Part shown: one piece after another, positions 5,321 through 44,041 of the stretch | Layout: the number at the start of each line of letters is the position of its first letter | How positions within the stretch are numbered: position 1 is the first letter of the stretch | Assembly: GCA_947624775.1 (NCBI GenBank) | Contig: CANQLT010000008.1 | Span: forward strand, 1-50,460 | Reading direction: 5' to 3' | Length of the DNA stretch: 50,460 bases | Origin: an uncultured Monoglobus sp. | GTDB lineage: Bacteria; Bacillota; Clostridia; Monoglobales; Monoglobaceae | The notes under the pieces: model-generated | What the model was told of the DNA's origin: nothing | Seen by the model: only the letters and a program-made list of their open reading frames with translations | The model's database searches: none | Made by a program: the position numbers and the translations under genes

Positions 5321-5349
5321 TTGACAAAATCAAAACGATAATATATAAT
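5321..5349 (+). promoter_or_regulatory. Consensus promoter of the small RNA in peptide/RNA element 1
   Basis: TTGACA (5321-5326), a 17-base spacer and TATAAT (5344-5349) match the sigma-A consensus at every position. Start would be near 5356, just before the terminal repeat. The same arrangement is found in element 2 at 41.9 kb. Confidence 0.8.
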
Positions 5350-5355
5350 AATAAA

Positions 5356-5451
5356 AGAGAAACGGCAGAGCGTAAAAACGGTTTGGCCGCTTCAGATTTG
5401 TTTAGTAAACAACCGATCCTTGGCGGCTAAACTTTGGATCGGTTGTTTTTT
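5356..5451 (+). ncRNA. Predicted antisense-type small RNA of element 1
   Basis: A transcript of about 95 nt is expected from the consensus promoter at 5321 to the terminator T-run ending at 5451, which abuts the stop codon of the convergent 27-residue peptide gene. Its 5' part is the terminal repeat (5364-5393), followed by a spacer and the terminator hairpin. It has no reading frame of note. It is complementary to any peptide mRNA that reads through past its stop codon. The copy at 41.8 kb keeps the promoter, the GGCAGAGCGTAAAAACGGT start and the hairpin. An antitoxin role is inferred from the layout. Confidence 0.6.
5408..5451 (+). terminator. Intrinsic terminator of the element 1 small RNA
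   Basis: A perfect 12-bp stem (5408-5419 with 5436-5447), a 16-base loop containing GCTAAACT, and a T-run to 5451. On the opposite strand the T-tract is weak, so the peptide mRNA may read through. Confidence 0.8.
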
Positions 5452-5533
5452 ATTGCACCACAGGCGCAAACGCTATAAGTATTATAACGATAACAAACAG
5501 CATTACCGCTGCTTTTAAAGCCCAATGTTTCAT
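5450..5533 (-). CDS. 27-residue hydrophobic peptide, candidate type I toxin (copy 1)
   Basis: Too short for routine calling. ATG 5533 has GGAGG nine bases upstream; an in-frame ATG at 5539 would add two residues but leaves too little spacing. The product begins MKHWALKAAVML, continues as a single hydrophobic membrane segment (FVIVIILIAFA) and ends PVVQ. The second copy at 41691 also encodes exactly 27 residues, with M1, K2, K7, L12, V14, I15, F22, A23, V26 and Q27 identical and the rest hydrophobic. Selection on the protein is implied, because most codons differ. Membrane-active toxin function is inferred from size, hydrophobicity and the convergent RNA, as in the Ibs, Fst and TxpA families, which it does not clearly belong to. 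Confidence 0.65.
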   Translation of the reverse strand: MKHWALKAAVMLFVIVIILIAFAPVVQ

Positions 5534-5699: not shown

Positions 5700-5728
5700 A
5701 TAATACCACAGTATTACAATTTTTTCAA
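5700..5728 (-). promoter_or_regulatory. Promoter of the element 1 peptide mRNA
   Basis: Minus-strand TTGAAA (5723-5728), 17 bases, TATTAT (5700-5705). The spacer start AAATTGT is shared with the element 2 promoter, TTGAAA-17-TATCAT. The transcript would have a leader of about 160 nt. Confidence 0.65.
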
Positions 5729-5758
5729 ATTAAAATTCGGTTACACAAATAGGCGGTG

Positions 5759-41439: not shown

Positions 41440-41486
41440 ATTATTTTACAAAAAACGGGAACTTTTCGCTGTAACCGATTTGTTAC

Positions 41487-41515
41487 TTGAAAAAATTGTC
41501 ATAGTATGTTATCAT
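41487..41515 (+). promoter_or_regulatory. Promoter of the element 2 peptide mRNA
   Basis: TTGAAA (41487-41492), 17 bases, TATCAT (41510-41515). The first seven spacer bases (AAATTGT) are the same as in element 1. Confidence 0.65.
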
Positions 41516-41569
41516 ATATGTGGTAGCAAAAACTGCAAGTGCGGATCTGTTTCGCGCGGAGAAACACCT

Positions 41570-41590
41570 TTGCGCGAATAAAACGCGCAA
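41570..41590 (+). promoter_or_regulatory. Conserved AATAAAA-loop hairpin in the element 2 peptide mRNA leader
   Basis: TTGCGCG/CGCGCAA stem around the loop AATAAAA. The loop is identical to that of element 1 while the stem is different in sequence. Confidence 0.6.
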
Positions 41591-41637
41591 TCGTAAAAGG
41601 CAGAACTAAAGACGTAGAGACGGTTGGTCGCTTCATT

Positions 41638-41680
41638 CCTTTCTAAACACTTAACATCGTGTTTAAGACGCAAAGAAAGG
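41638..41680 (+). promoter_or_regulatory. Leader structure that can hide the ribosome site of the element 2 peptide
   Basis: CCTTTCT (41638-41644) can pair with AGAAAGG (41674-41680), which contains the ribosome site. It encloses a TAAACAC/GTGTTTA stem (41644-41650, 41659-41665). Element 1 has a GAAACA/TGTTTC hairpin and CTTC/GAAG pairing in the same place. Confidence 0.5.
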
Positions 41681-41690
41681 GGTGATGTCG

Positions 41691-41774
41691 ATGAAAGATT
41701 TTATTTTTAAAGTTTTAATTGCATTGCTTGTGATTATCGTATTATTTGCGATTTTTGCATCGCCTGTGCAATAA
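41691..41774 (+). CDS. 27-residue hydrophobic peptide, candidate type I toxin (copy 2)
   Basis: ATG 41691 has AAAGGGGTGA about eight bases upstream; an in-frame ATG at 41685 overlaps that site. The peptide starts MKDFIFKVLIALL, has one membrane segment (VIIVLFAIFA) and ends SPVQ. It equals copy 1 in length, has ten identical residues in register and keeps hydrophobic character elsewhere. A predicted convergent RNA ends at its stop codon. Likely membrane peptide; toxicity is inferred only. Confidence 0.65.
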   Translation: MKDFIFKVLIALLVIIVLFAIFASPVQ

Positions 41775-41819
41775 AAAATAACAACCGCTCTTATAGTTTA
41801 GCAAGCTAAGGCGGCTGTT
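41773..41819 (-). terminator. Intrinsic terminator of the element 2 small RNA
   Basis: On the minus strand a TAACAGCCGC/GCGGTTGTTA stem (one G-U) is followed by six Ts over the peptide stop codon. The loop shares GCTAAACT with element 1, while the lower stem differs. Confidence 0.75.
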
Positions 41820-41872
41820 AAATTATTCGCCGAAGCGGCTGACCGTTTTTACGCTCTGCCGTTTCTCTTTCT
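41773..41872 (-). ncRNA. Predicted antisense-type small RNA of element 2
   Basis: A transcript of about 98 nt from the consensus promoter at 41879-41907 to the T-run at the peptide stop codon. Its 5' end carries the same GAGAAACGGCAGAGCG start as the element 1 RNA, the terminal repeat and the terminator hairpin. It would be complementary to the 3' end of a read-through peptide mRNA. An antitoxin role is inferred. Confidence 0.6.
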
Positions 41873-41878
41873 ATAATT

Positions 41879-41907
41879 ATTATATATCATTATTGCGCCT
41901 TTGTCAA
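41879..41907 (-). promoter_or_regulatory. Consensus promoter of the element 2 small RNA
   Basis: Minus-strand TTGACA (41902-41907), 17 bases, TATAAT (41879-41884), a full consensus match. Confidence 0.8.
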
Positions 41908-42109: not shown

Positions 42110-44041
42110 ATGAGTGAATTTATTGATCTGATAAAACGGCGGGATATGGACGGCGTCAAGGAGATGCTCTCCCACAGCGCCAGACTTGTGGACGAGTGTG
42201 ACGAAAATGGTATATCCGCGGCGTTCCATATGATAAGGACCGGCGATATGAAGTGGGTGAAGTTTTTGGTTGAATACACTTTCGCCAGCTTTAACGAGTG
42301 CGATTTCAGGCATCGCGGCGCGCTGCACGAGGCGGTCATGACCGGCGATCTTGAAATAGTCAAATACTTTGTGGAGCGCGTGGGCCTTGACCCCTGCCAG
42401 GGCGACAGACATCTGATAACGCCGTTTGAGCTGGCAAGGGAGCACGGCTTTGCCGATATAGAAAAATATTTTGAACAGGTTGTCGGCTGCAAATTCGAGG
42501 ATATGTACCAAAACCCCGTGCGCCGCGGATTTTACGCCGACCCTTCGATAGTGCGCGTTGGCGAGGACTACTACATGGTGAACTCGTCGTTCGTGTTCTT
42601 CCCCTGCATACCGATCTCCCACTCGACCGATCTGGTGCATTGGCAGAGCATAGGCCACGCCATAACCAACCCCGAGTGGGCGCACCTTGACGGTCTCGAG
42701 GGAGGCAGAGGCTACTGGGCGCCCGATATATCATACCACAACGGAAAGTTCTACATAACGGCCACCCTGCGCTACAACGACAGCGAGAAAGTGAAGCGCA
42801 GACAGATAATTGTGTCGTCCGAAAAGCCCGAGGGCCCGTATTCCGAGCCCGTGTTTATCGACGAGGACGGCATCGACCCGTCTCTGTTCACCGATGTGGA
42901 CGGCAGACGCTACATGCTGCTGAACCGCGGCGCGAGAATTTTTGAGCTCAACGAGGACGCCACCGAAAAGATCTCCGAGGCGAAGCTCCTCTATTACGGC
43001 GACAACAAGCGTGCTCCCGAGGGCCCGCATTTGATACACAAGGACGGGTACTACTATCTGTTCCAGGCCGAGGGCGGCACAGGGGAGCAGCACTGCGTGA
43101 CCGTTTCGCGCAGCAAGACGCTGATGGGCGTGTATGAGCCTTGCCCTTATAACCCGATACTGACGCAGCGCGACTACACCGCGCCTATCACCTGCGCGGG
43201 CCACGCAAAGCCGGTGCAGACTCAGGACGGCGACTGGTACGTGGTGTACCTCTGCAACAGGAGCCTTGACGGAAAATACGCCATGCTCGGCCGCGAGACC
43301 TGCCTCGACCCTATCACATGGACGCCCGACGGCTGGCCGATCGTTAATAATCTGAACGGCCCCAGCACTCTCCAGAAAAAGCCCAAGCTGAAACCCGCGC
43401 CCAATGAGCCCGGAGCCAGCTACGACAGCTTTGACGACGGAAAGATAAAGCCGTTCTGGATGTTCTCGGGAATCCCCGAGGAGGACGGATTCAGGCTTGA
43501 GAACAGCAGACTGTACATAAAGGGCTCAAGAGAGCCGCTCAGCTCCAGAAAAGCGACTAACTTTATTGTGCGCCGCCAGCCCGACTTCAACTTCGACGTT
43601 ATCTGCAAGATGGACGTCCTGCCCGATCTTGACTACGAGCAGAACTACGGCCTGACAGGATACTACGACGAGCTGACCTACTTTACATTCGGAATTTACA
43701 GAAACGGCGAAAGAGGCTACGCGCTCAAGCTGTTCGAGAAGATAGACGATGTGGAGCGGTTCACCCACTATGTGGGTCTGCCGGGCCTCACCGACACCAT
43801 ATATTTAAAGATCGAGACCGACGGCCTGCGCCGCGTGTTCTCATACAGCATAGACGGAACGAATTACAGAAAAGTATACACAGCGGACAACATTTACTAC
43901 CTTTGCGCCCAGGCGATCAAAAAGGGCAAGCGCTTCACGGGCGCTATGGTTGGCATGTACGCCTACAGCGGAAAGGACGAGCCCATATACGCCGCTTTTG
44001 ATGAGTTCCGCTGCATCAGGAGACATTTCAGAGATGAATAA
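42110..44041 (+). CDS. Ankyrin-repeat/GH43 fusion glycoside hydrolase, probably cytoplasmic
   Basis: 643 residues with no signal peptide. Residues 1-125 are ankyrin-like repeats (DMDGVKEMLSHSARLVDECDENGISAAFHMI; GALHEAVMTGDLEIVKYFVE). Residues 135-430 are a five-bladed GH43 domain with D144 (base, FYADPS), D256 (pKa modulator, DGIDPS), E304 (acid, APEGPH) and H364 near the calcium site. Residues 435-640 are a beta-sandwich of the type found at the C-terminus of beta-xylosidase-like GH43 enzymes. It should release arabinose or xylose from oligosaccharides taken into the cell. An ankyrin N-terminus on GH43 is unusual and suggests docking to another protein. The ATG follows GAGGTG and overlaps are with the next gene only. 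Confidence 0.88.
   Translation: MSEFIDLIKRRDMDGVKEMLSHSARLVDECDENGISAAFHMIRTGDMKWVKFLVEYTFASFNECDFRHRGALHEAVMTGDLEIVKYFVERVGLDPCQGDRHLITPFELAREHGFADIEKYFEQVVGCKFEDMYQNPVRRGFYADPSIVRVGEDYYMVNSSFVFFPCIPISHSTDLVHWQSIGHAITNPEWAHLDGLEGGRGYWAPDISYHNGKFYITATLRYNDSEKVKRRQIIVSSEKPEGPYSEPVFIDEDGIDPSLFTDVDGRRYMLLNRGARIFELNEDATEKISEAKLLYYGDNKRAPEGPHLIHKDGYYYLFQAEGGTGEQHCVTVSRSKTLMGVYEPCPYNPILTQRDYTAPITCAGHAKPVQTQDGDWYVVYLCNRSLDGKYAMLGRETCLDPITWTPDGWPIVNNLNGPSTLQKKPKLKPAPNEPGASYDSFDDGKIKPFWMFSGIPEEDGFRLENSRLYIKGSREPLSSRKATNFIVRRQPDFNFDVICKMDVLPDLDYEQNYGLTGYYDELTYFTFGIYRNGERGYALKLFEKIDDVERFTHYVGLPGLTDTIYLKIETDGLRRVFSYSIDGTNYRKVYTADNIYYLCAQAIKKGKRFTGAMVGMYAYSGKDEPIYAAFDEFRCIRRHFRDE

Follow-up and report, generated by a model that had tools for sequence, protein, structure and literature searches.

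A probable type I toxin-antitoxin family of gut Clostridia whose antitoxin RNA begins with a copy of its toxin mRNA leader

Among described type I toxin-antitoxin systems, bsrG/SR4 of the Bacillus subtilis prophage SPbeta, together with txpA/RatA and bsrE/SR5, most closely resembles the element analysed here. According to reviews, SR4 binds the 3' end of the bsrG mRNA yet lengthens the stem hiding the Shine-Dalgarno (SD) sequence from 4 to 8 bp, and the duplex is cut by RNase III (PMC6562991; PMC4147584). Shared with our element are convergent genes overlapping at their 3' ends, an antitoxin terminator at the toxin stop codon, a hidden SD, and an antitoxin region that repeats the mRNA leader in the sense orientation; a helix between the two mRNA ends is predicted for bsrG and proposed for our element. 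In phage SPbeta (L278), the bsrG leader (CTGTACATAAAG...CAAGGGAGTCTTGCTC) was found to possess such a sense copy within the antisense region with a score of 34 (shuffled mean 19, p = 0.002), and the predicted bsrG mRNA fold contains 33 pairs of 5'-3' helix. The two systems differ in their peptides, which are unrelated (38 residues, versus 27 here), in an extra hairpin (H3) lying within the helix of our element, and in its many chromosomal copies under one promoter box. The Rfam bsrG model (RF01412), which detected the B. subtilis control, identified no match in the element's genome and only a chance-level match (E = 3) to the element itself.

The par_pAD1/Fst system of Enterococcus is similar in its convergent promoters, SD-hiding hairpin and structured 5' end, and in a hairpin common to both RNAs, although termination on the mRNA side at this hairpin is uncertain in our element. 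Direct repeats corresponding to DRa/DRb are absent from the element, its common 5' block being an inverted repeat, and inspection of its peptides revealed neither the PXXXG motif of Fst nor a charged tail; membership in the Fst/par family was rejected on the basis of the repeats and the peptide motif. Type I modules of Clostridioides difficile (CD2907.1-RCd9 and others) are found next to CRISPR arrays and within prophages, and their toxins, which carry a lysine-rich tail, are in most cases 47-53 residues long, whereas the peptides described here comprise 27 residues ending in VQ, and the small RNA (sRNA) motif was not found in the viral collection, nor was there a plasmid match.

The window, a 50,460-nt stretch of an uncultured Monoglobus sp. 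genome, carries two copies of the element, of which copy 2 is organized as follows:

41470-41907, + strand: whole element, copy 2
41470-41492, + strand: conserved box TGTAAC-N6-TTAC-TTGAAA, reaching into the toxin-promoter -35 (supported by genome-wide box sites upstream of modules)
41487-41515, + strand: toxin mRNA promoter TTGAAA-17-TATCAT, conserved across copies
near 41522, + strand: predicted transcription start of the toxin mRNA
41523-41590, + strand: leader hairpins H1 (41523-41536), H2 (about 41539-41558) and H3 (41570-41590), with covarying pairs
41558-41634, + strand: 5' strand of the proposed closing helix, consisting of GGAGAAAC (41558-41565) and GGCAGA...CGCTTC (41599-41634) with H3 between (sense copy in the sRNA, wobble-directed differences, fold)
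41633-41685, + strand: stem hiding the SD sequence (covariation, predicted folds)
41691-41774, + strand: peptide frame MKDFIFKVLIALLVIIVLFAIFASPVQ plus stop (omega 0.37-0.42 over 42 homologues, profile match)
41780-41819, no strand assigned: hairpin 3' of the stop codon, terminator of the sRNA and possibly of both RNAs (stem covariation on the sRNA strand)
41772-41873, - strand: antitoxin sRNA of about 100 nt (covariance-model match, E = 2e-23, the model having been built including this sequence)
41828-41868, + strand: proposed 3' strand of the closing helix on the mRNA, complementary to the sRNA 5' end (folds, wobble-directed differences; presence in the mRNA predicted)
41879-41907, - strand: sRNA promoter TTGACA-17-TATAAT

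All parts named in the original prediction were located in copy 2 where it had placed them, including the toxin promoter (41487-41515), which carries an extended -10 TG, the full-consensus convergent promoter (41907-41879) and the 27-codon peptide frame (41691-41771 plus stop). Only the extent required amendment: rather than beginning at 41487, the element begins with the TGTAAC box at 41470, and the stretch from there to the toxin-promoter -35 is conserved. The T-tract of the hairpin following the stop codon is stronger on the sRNA side. The next gene in the window (42110-44041), into which the toxin mRNA of copy 2 could read, encodes an unusual pairing of ankyrin repeats with a GH43 glycosidase bearing a C2 domain.

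Copy 1, at 5.3 kb, mirrors this layout on the opposite strand:

5700-5745, - strand: box (5745-5723) and toxin promoter TTGAAA-17-TATTAT (5728-5700)
5450-5533, - strand: peptide frame MKHWALKAAVMLFVIVIILIAFAPVVQ plus stop (profile match)
5351-5455, + strand: antitoxin sRNA (covariance-model match, E = 6e-25)
5321-5349, + strand: sRNA promoter TTGACA-17-TATAAT

The two copies align at 69% identity over 423 bp (E = 1.4e-29), and the window contains the sRNA motif at exactly two sites, where 0.07 would be expected. Described originally as the second of a pair, copy 2 does have its counterpart at 5.3 kb, but is in fact one of four copies in the genome (contig C8 twice, C20 and C137). An exact scan of an 84,980-species collection for the sRNA 5' motif identified 67 stretches, 4 of them chance matches in unrelated genomes; nearly all belong to assemblies, of Monoglobus and further uncultured Clostridia, whose isolate names start with Lapin (rabbit). 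The motif reaches up to ten copies in some relatives and is also present in two genomes of another Clostridia family, and it is absent from a single-contig genome of the same genus (G009). In total 69 distinct elements were collected, nearly all from gut Clostridia assemblies. Searches of Rfam, Pfam, NCBIfam, PADLOC, plasmid and viral resources returned no relevant match to the element; judged from sequence, it appears to represent an undescribed type I toxin-antitoxin family with new peptide and RNA families.

Phylogenetic reconstruction of 36 elements placed the window copies in separate clades, one of 7 and one of 29 rows, at 100/100 support, each including copies from other Monoglobus species, which bears out the proposal that the two are old paralogues. 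The further proposal that they are kept by selection agrees with the constraint on the peptide frame (omega about 0.4): among 42 homologous frames of 27 codons, pooled pN is lower than pS, the corrected ratio being 0.37 and 0.38 within the two clades and 0.42 overall, and changes are commonest at third codon positions. Orthologues of copy 1 with matching flanks were found at L049 and L073. At the loci orthologous to copy 2 (L009, L010) the leader is 96% identical and the frame only 62-64%, showing that peptide-terminator cassettes have been exchanged between copies; simple vertical paralogy therefore does not describe them. The peptide itself is a single hydrophobic segment in which M1 and L12 are invariant and I15, F22, A23, V26 and Q27 nearly so, with Lys/Arg at position 7 and, in all sequences but one, at position 2. 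No match to it was found in the protein family libraries searched (Pfam, NCBIfam), and we regard it as a probable membrane toxin.

Folding of 36 leaders with RNAalifold predicted hairpins H1, H2 and H3, an X region and the SD-hiding stem, with 15 of the 33 pairs, including some in the SD stem, showing change on both sides. Covariation is clearest for H3, the stem of which varies between GCGCG/CGCGC, GCATA/TATGC and similar pairs around an AATAAAA loop. The sRNA terminator also covaries, and the sRNA 5' hairpin shows few changes, mostly pairing-preserving. The leader blocks that had been noted as common to both copies were confirmed, and are explained by repeats within each element: the sRNA starts with AGAGAAAC-GGCAGAG and its 5' hairpin ends in GCCGCUUC, and the mRNA leader carries GGAGAAAC-H3-GGCAGA and GGCCGCUUC. 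Locus by locus, and within the transcript only, the first ~35 nt of the sRNA copy the leader of its own toxin mRNA; because the blocks are alike in sense, they are inverted in the DNA. Across 21 loci from three families with unlike peptides (A, that of the element; B, from the same genome; and C, from across Clostridia, the latter two being sister groups reached through promoter matches and covariance models), sRNA 5' ends matched their own leaders with a mean score of 33.2, compared to 21.0 for other leaders (permutation p <= 1e-4), and antisense similarity showed no cognate excess at these loci. Cognate similarity was absent from the promoters (p = 0.86) and present in the transcribed parts (p = 1e-4), a comparison to which some visibly wrong promoter picks add noise. 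Selection for this identity therefore acts on the RNA. Two other pairings were considered and set aside: the sRNA 5' end as a plain antisense to the leader, where pairing is possible and not clearly cognate-specific, and the mRNA 5' block with its own anti-SD arm, for which no cognate signal was found.

A toxin mRNA long enough to cover the sRNA gene would have a 3' end complementary to the start of the sRNA, and this end could pair with the mRNA's own leader. For such a helix, a leader G in place of an sRNA A, or a leader U in place of an sRNA C, keeps a G-U pair, while the reverse breaks it. Wobble-compatible differences outnumbered incompatible ones by 106:6, 19:6 and 25:3 in families A, B and C, respectively, with much of the bias in family A coming from two loop positions (leader GG, sRNA AA). 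Counted by locus, in a sample of two family A representatives plus the B, C and bsrG loci, 20 lean in the predicted direction and 1 in the other (sign p = 1e-5), although relatedness among loci means that such counts overstate independence. Extended mRNAs are predicted to form 29-42 long-range pairs in seven family A loci and 31 in a family B locus. Seven of nine family B modules examined carry a strong terminator in the mRNA direction over the sRNA -35 box (-13.6 to -18.7 kcal/mol), such that the family B mRNA should span the whole sRNA; a search for an mRNA terminator beyond the sRNA in family A found none, so that there the extension is conjectural and the mRNA may end at the shared hairpin. 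The folds assign the CGCUUC leader end to both the closing helix and the SD stem. Forbidding the 3' pairing, to mimic a bound antitoxin, raised the mean number of pairs holding the SD region from 7.6 to 13.6 (36/36 loci) and lowered SD exposure in 31/36; this effect is a prediction, obtained under a constraint that by design favours local stems.

We consider it likely that the element belongs to an undescribed family of type I toxin-antitoxin modules and works in a manner similar to bsrG/SR4. The weaker promoter would drive the mRNA for the 27-residue membrane peptide. From the opposite strand, the consensus promoter would produce an antitoxin RNA, roughly 100 nt long and ending at the toxin stop codon. 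Reading into the sRNA gene, the mRNA would close on itself, its leader blocks GGAGAAAC and then GGCAGA...CGCUUC pairing with its own 3' extension. The antitoxin would take the 3' strand and release the 5' strand, of which the CGCUUC end could then join and lengthen the stem that sequesters the ribosome-binding site; RNase III could cut the long duplex. Such competition for the same 3' strand would explain why the antitoxin starts with a copy of the leader blocks.

The distribution of toxin and antitoxin genes is markedly one-sided. A peptide profile search, independent of the sRNA, identified 36 copies in seven genomes, and comparison of coordinates placed every one (36/36) next to an sRNA. 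As the same genomes contain 44 strong sRNA matches, each toxin being paired with one, 8 of the 44 sRNAs lack a toxin. A search with the mRNA leader recovered 30 readable loci, comprising 28 intact toxins, all with an sRNA, and two loci lacking the sRNA, each with a broken frame. Toxin loss takes varied forms, with the leader and most of the frame gone in L079, L086 and L098, the leader and frame start lost in L102, the entire toxin part lost in L051, L056 and L106, and the toxin part replaced in L087, L088 and L099; the sRNA promoter, 5' hairpin and terminator are retained in all of them. Some toxinless loci share descent, and independent losses therefore number fewer than 8. Loss in the opposite direction, with the toxin kept and the sRNA gone, was not found among these loci. 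The parts of the element thus do not always stay together, the toxin being repeatedly lost where the sRNA is retained; homologues lacking the frame, named in advance as evidence against the original prediction, do exist and count partly against it, but only in the direction predicted for a toxin-antitoxin pair. As in type I modules generally, we find a small hydrophobic peptide under selection (27 residues, omega about 0.4), a toxin never kept without its antitoxin (36/36) and, at the level of the DNA, an antitoxin RNA opposite the toxin mRNA with its own promoter and terminator. The toxinless copies L051, L056, L106 and L079, L086, L098 have the same flanks in several species, the latter three lying beside a skipping-rope RNA (Rfam RF02924). 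Conservation showed no clear difference between toxinless sRNAs and their flanks. These sRNAs may target, in trans, toxin mRNAs whose terminators are of the same class.

Other readings of the element were weighed against the bsrG/SR4-like one. Two-point pairing of the par_pAD1/Fst kind, in which the shared hairpin terminates both RNAs and the antitoxin makes direct contact with the leader through its 5' end (at the anti-SD arm and at block X, on its 3' arm), is suggested by the convergent layout and hidden SD, as in par, by duplexes possible at the leader site in most loci, and by a slightly better match of the sRNA 5' tail to the anti-SD arm in cognate pairs of family A (p = 0.003). Yet this cognate excess is weak across families (p = 0.07 and 0.15), direct repeats are lacking and the common block is inverted in the DNA, the direction of the wobble differences goes unexplained, and binding of the anti-SD arm would free the SD; we therefore judge it unlikely. 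Less probable again is that the peptide is a small membrane protein with another job, its expression tuned by antisense RNA. While any peptide of use to the cell might be constrained and present in many copies, it never occurs without the sRNA, which often occurs without it, toxin deletion has been repeated, and a weak promoter and hidden SD stand opposite a consensus promoter. That the inverted repeats are the ends of a MITE-like mobile element, with promoters riding along, seems very improbable: it would fit the presence of several copies scattered through each genome, the inverted repeats that the element contains and the exchange of cassettes between copies, but the differences are directional with respect to wobble pairing, and copies 1 and 2 have orthologous flanks in other species. 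Mobile-element ends, as well as homogenisation by template switching, were also rejected as sources of the repeat identity, which stops at the transcription start and is absent from promoters.

Closer examination of the promoter region placed the element, taken as a bsrG/SR4-like module, in a larger set. Allowing up to two mismatches, the 23-bp box pattern TGTAACNNNNTNTTAAYTTGAAA occurs 12 times in the element's own genome, and all 12 occurrences precede a module of family A or B, in which a small hydrophobic frame faces a convergent sRNA; at one (L240) the start codon reads ACG. Five further sites have three mismatches, of which one (L244) is such a module. The genome thus probably holds at least a dozen module copies of the two families sharing a promoter switch. 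Family B (e.g. VKYALRILFIVSLIHIFFAIFAKTVI), under the same box, is represented at L232, L234-L240, L242 and L244, on contigs C10, C35, C80, C141, C146, C173, C16, C26, C61 and C39. In its relatives L212, L217, L218 and L226 the toxin frame ends in a sequence (AGCACAAAAGC) similar to the 5' block of the sRNA (about GCACAAAAGG), so that the two ends of the sRNA could pair. A dispersed repeat of ~100-130 bp with a terminator-like hairpin (AAAAAATCGCCTGCGATTTTTT) was also observed at corresponding leader positions in the two families (L035, L046, L050, L083, L091, L092, L109; also L212, L224, L232, L235), and could silence the toxin through premature termination. Family C (L182-L192, L201-L230) comprises a wide set of convergent small-peptide modules in Clostridia, with a variant of CGGTTAGCC present in the leader and again in the sRNA; the loci tested had no Rfam match at gathering score. 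Matches to model R2 were found in 61 of 291 Clostridia genomes, these including loci without a recognisable toxin and not all being real modules.

New here are the peptide and RNA families, their copy number, the common box and the explanation proposed for the leader copy, and together they add to gut Clostridia a probable family of type I toxins, present in multiple copies and overlooked by annotation libraries. An antitoxin starting with a copy of its own toxin mRNA leader provides a signature that finds modules despite unrelated peptides; it linked three families and also fits bsrG/SR4. What triggers chromosomal type I toxins is a long-open question which the shared promoter box makes directly testable, since one and the same factor would be expected at a dozen sites in the genome. 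The repetition of TAAC about 11 bp apart would, we presume, suit a regulator of the OmpR/PhoB type. We suggest tentatively, and with more doubt than confidence, that the box TGTAAC-N5/6-TTAAYTTGAAA is the target of a single regulator, through which twelve or more toxin modules from at least two families are switched together in the same cell, with toxinless antitoxins protecting in trans. If true, these modules would constitute a coordinated toxin regulon rather than isolated addiction modules.
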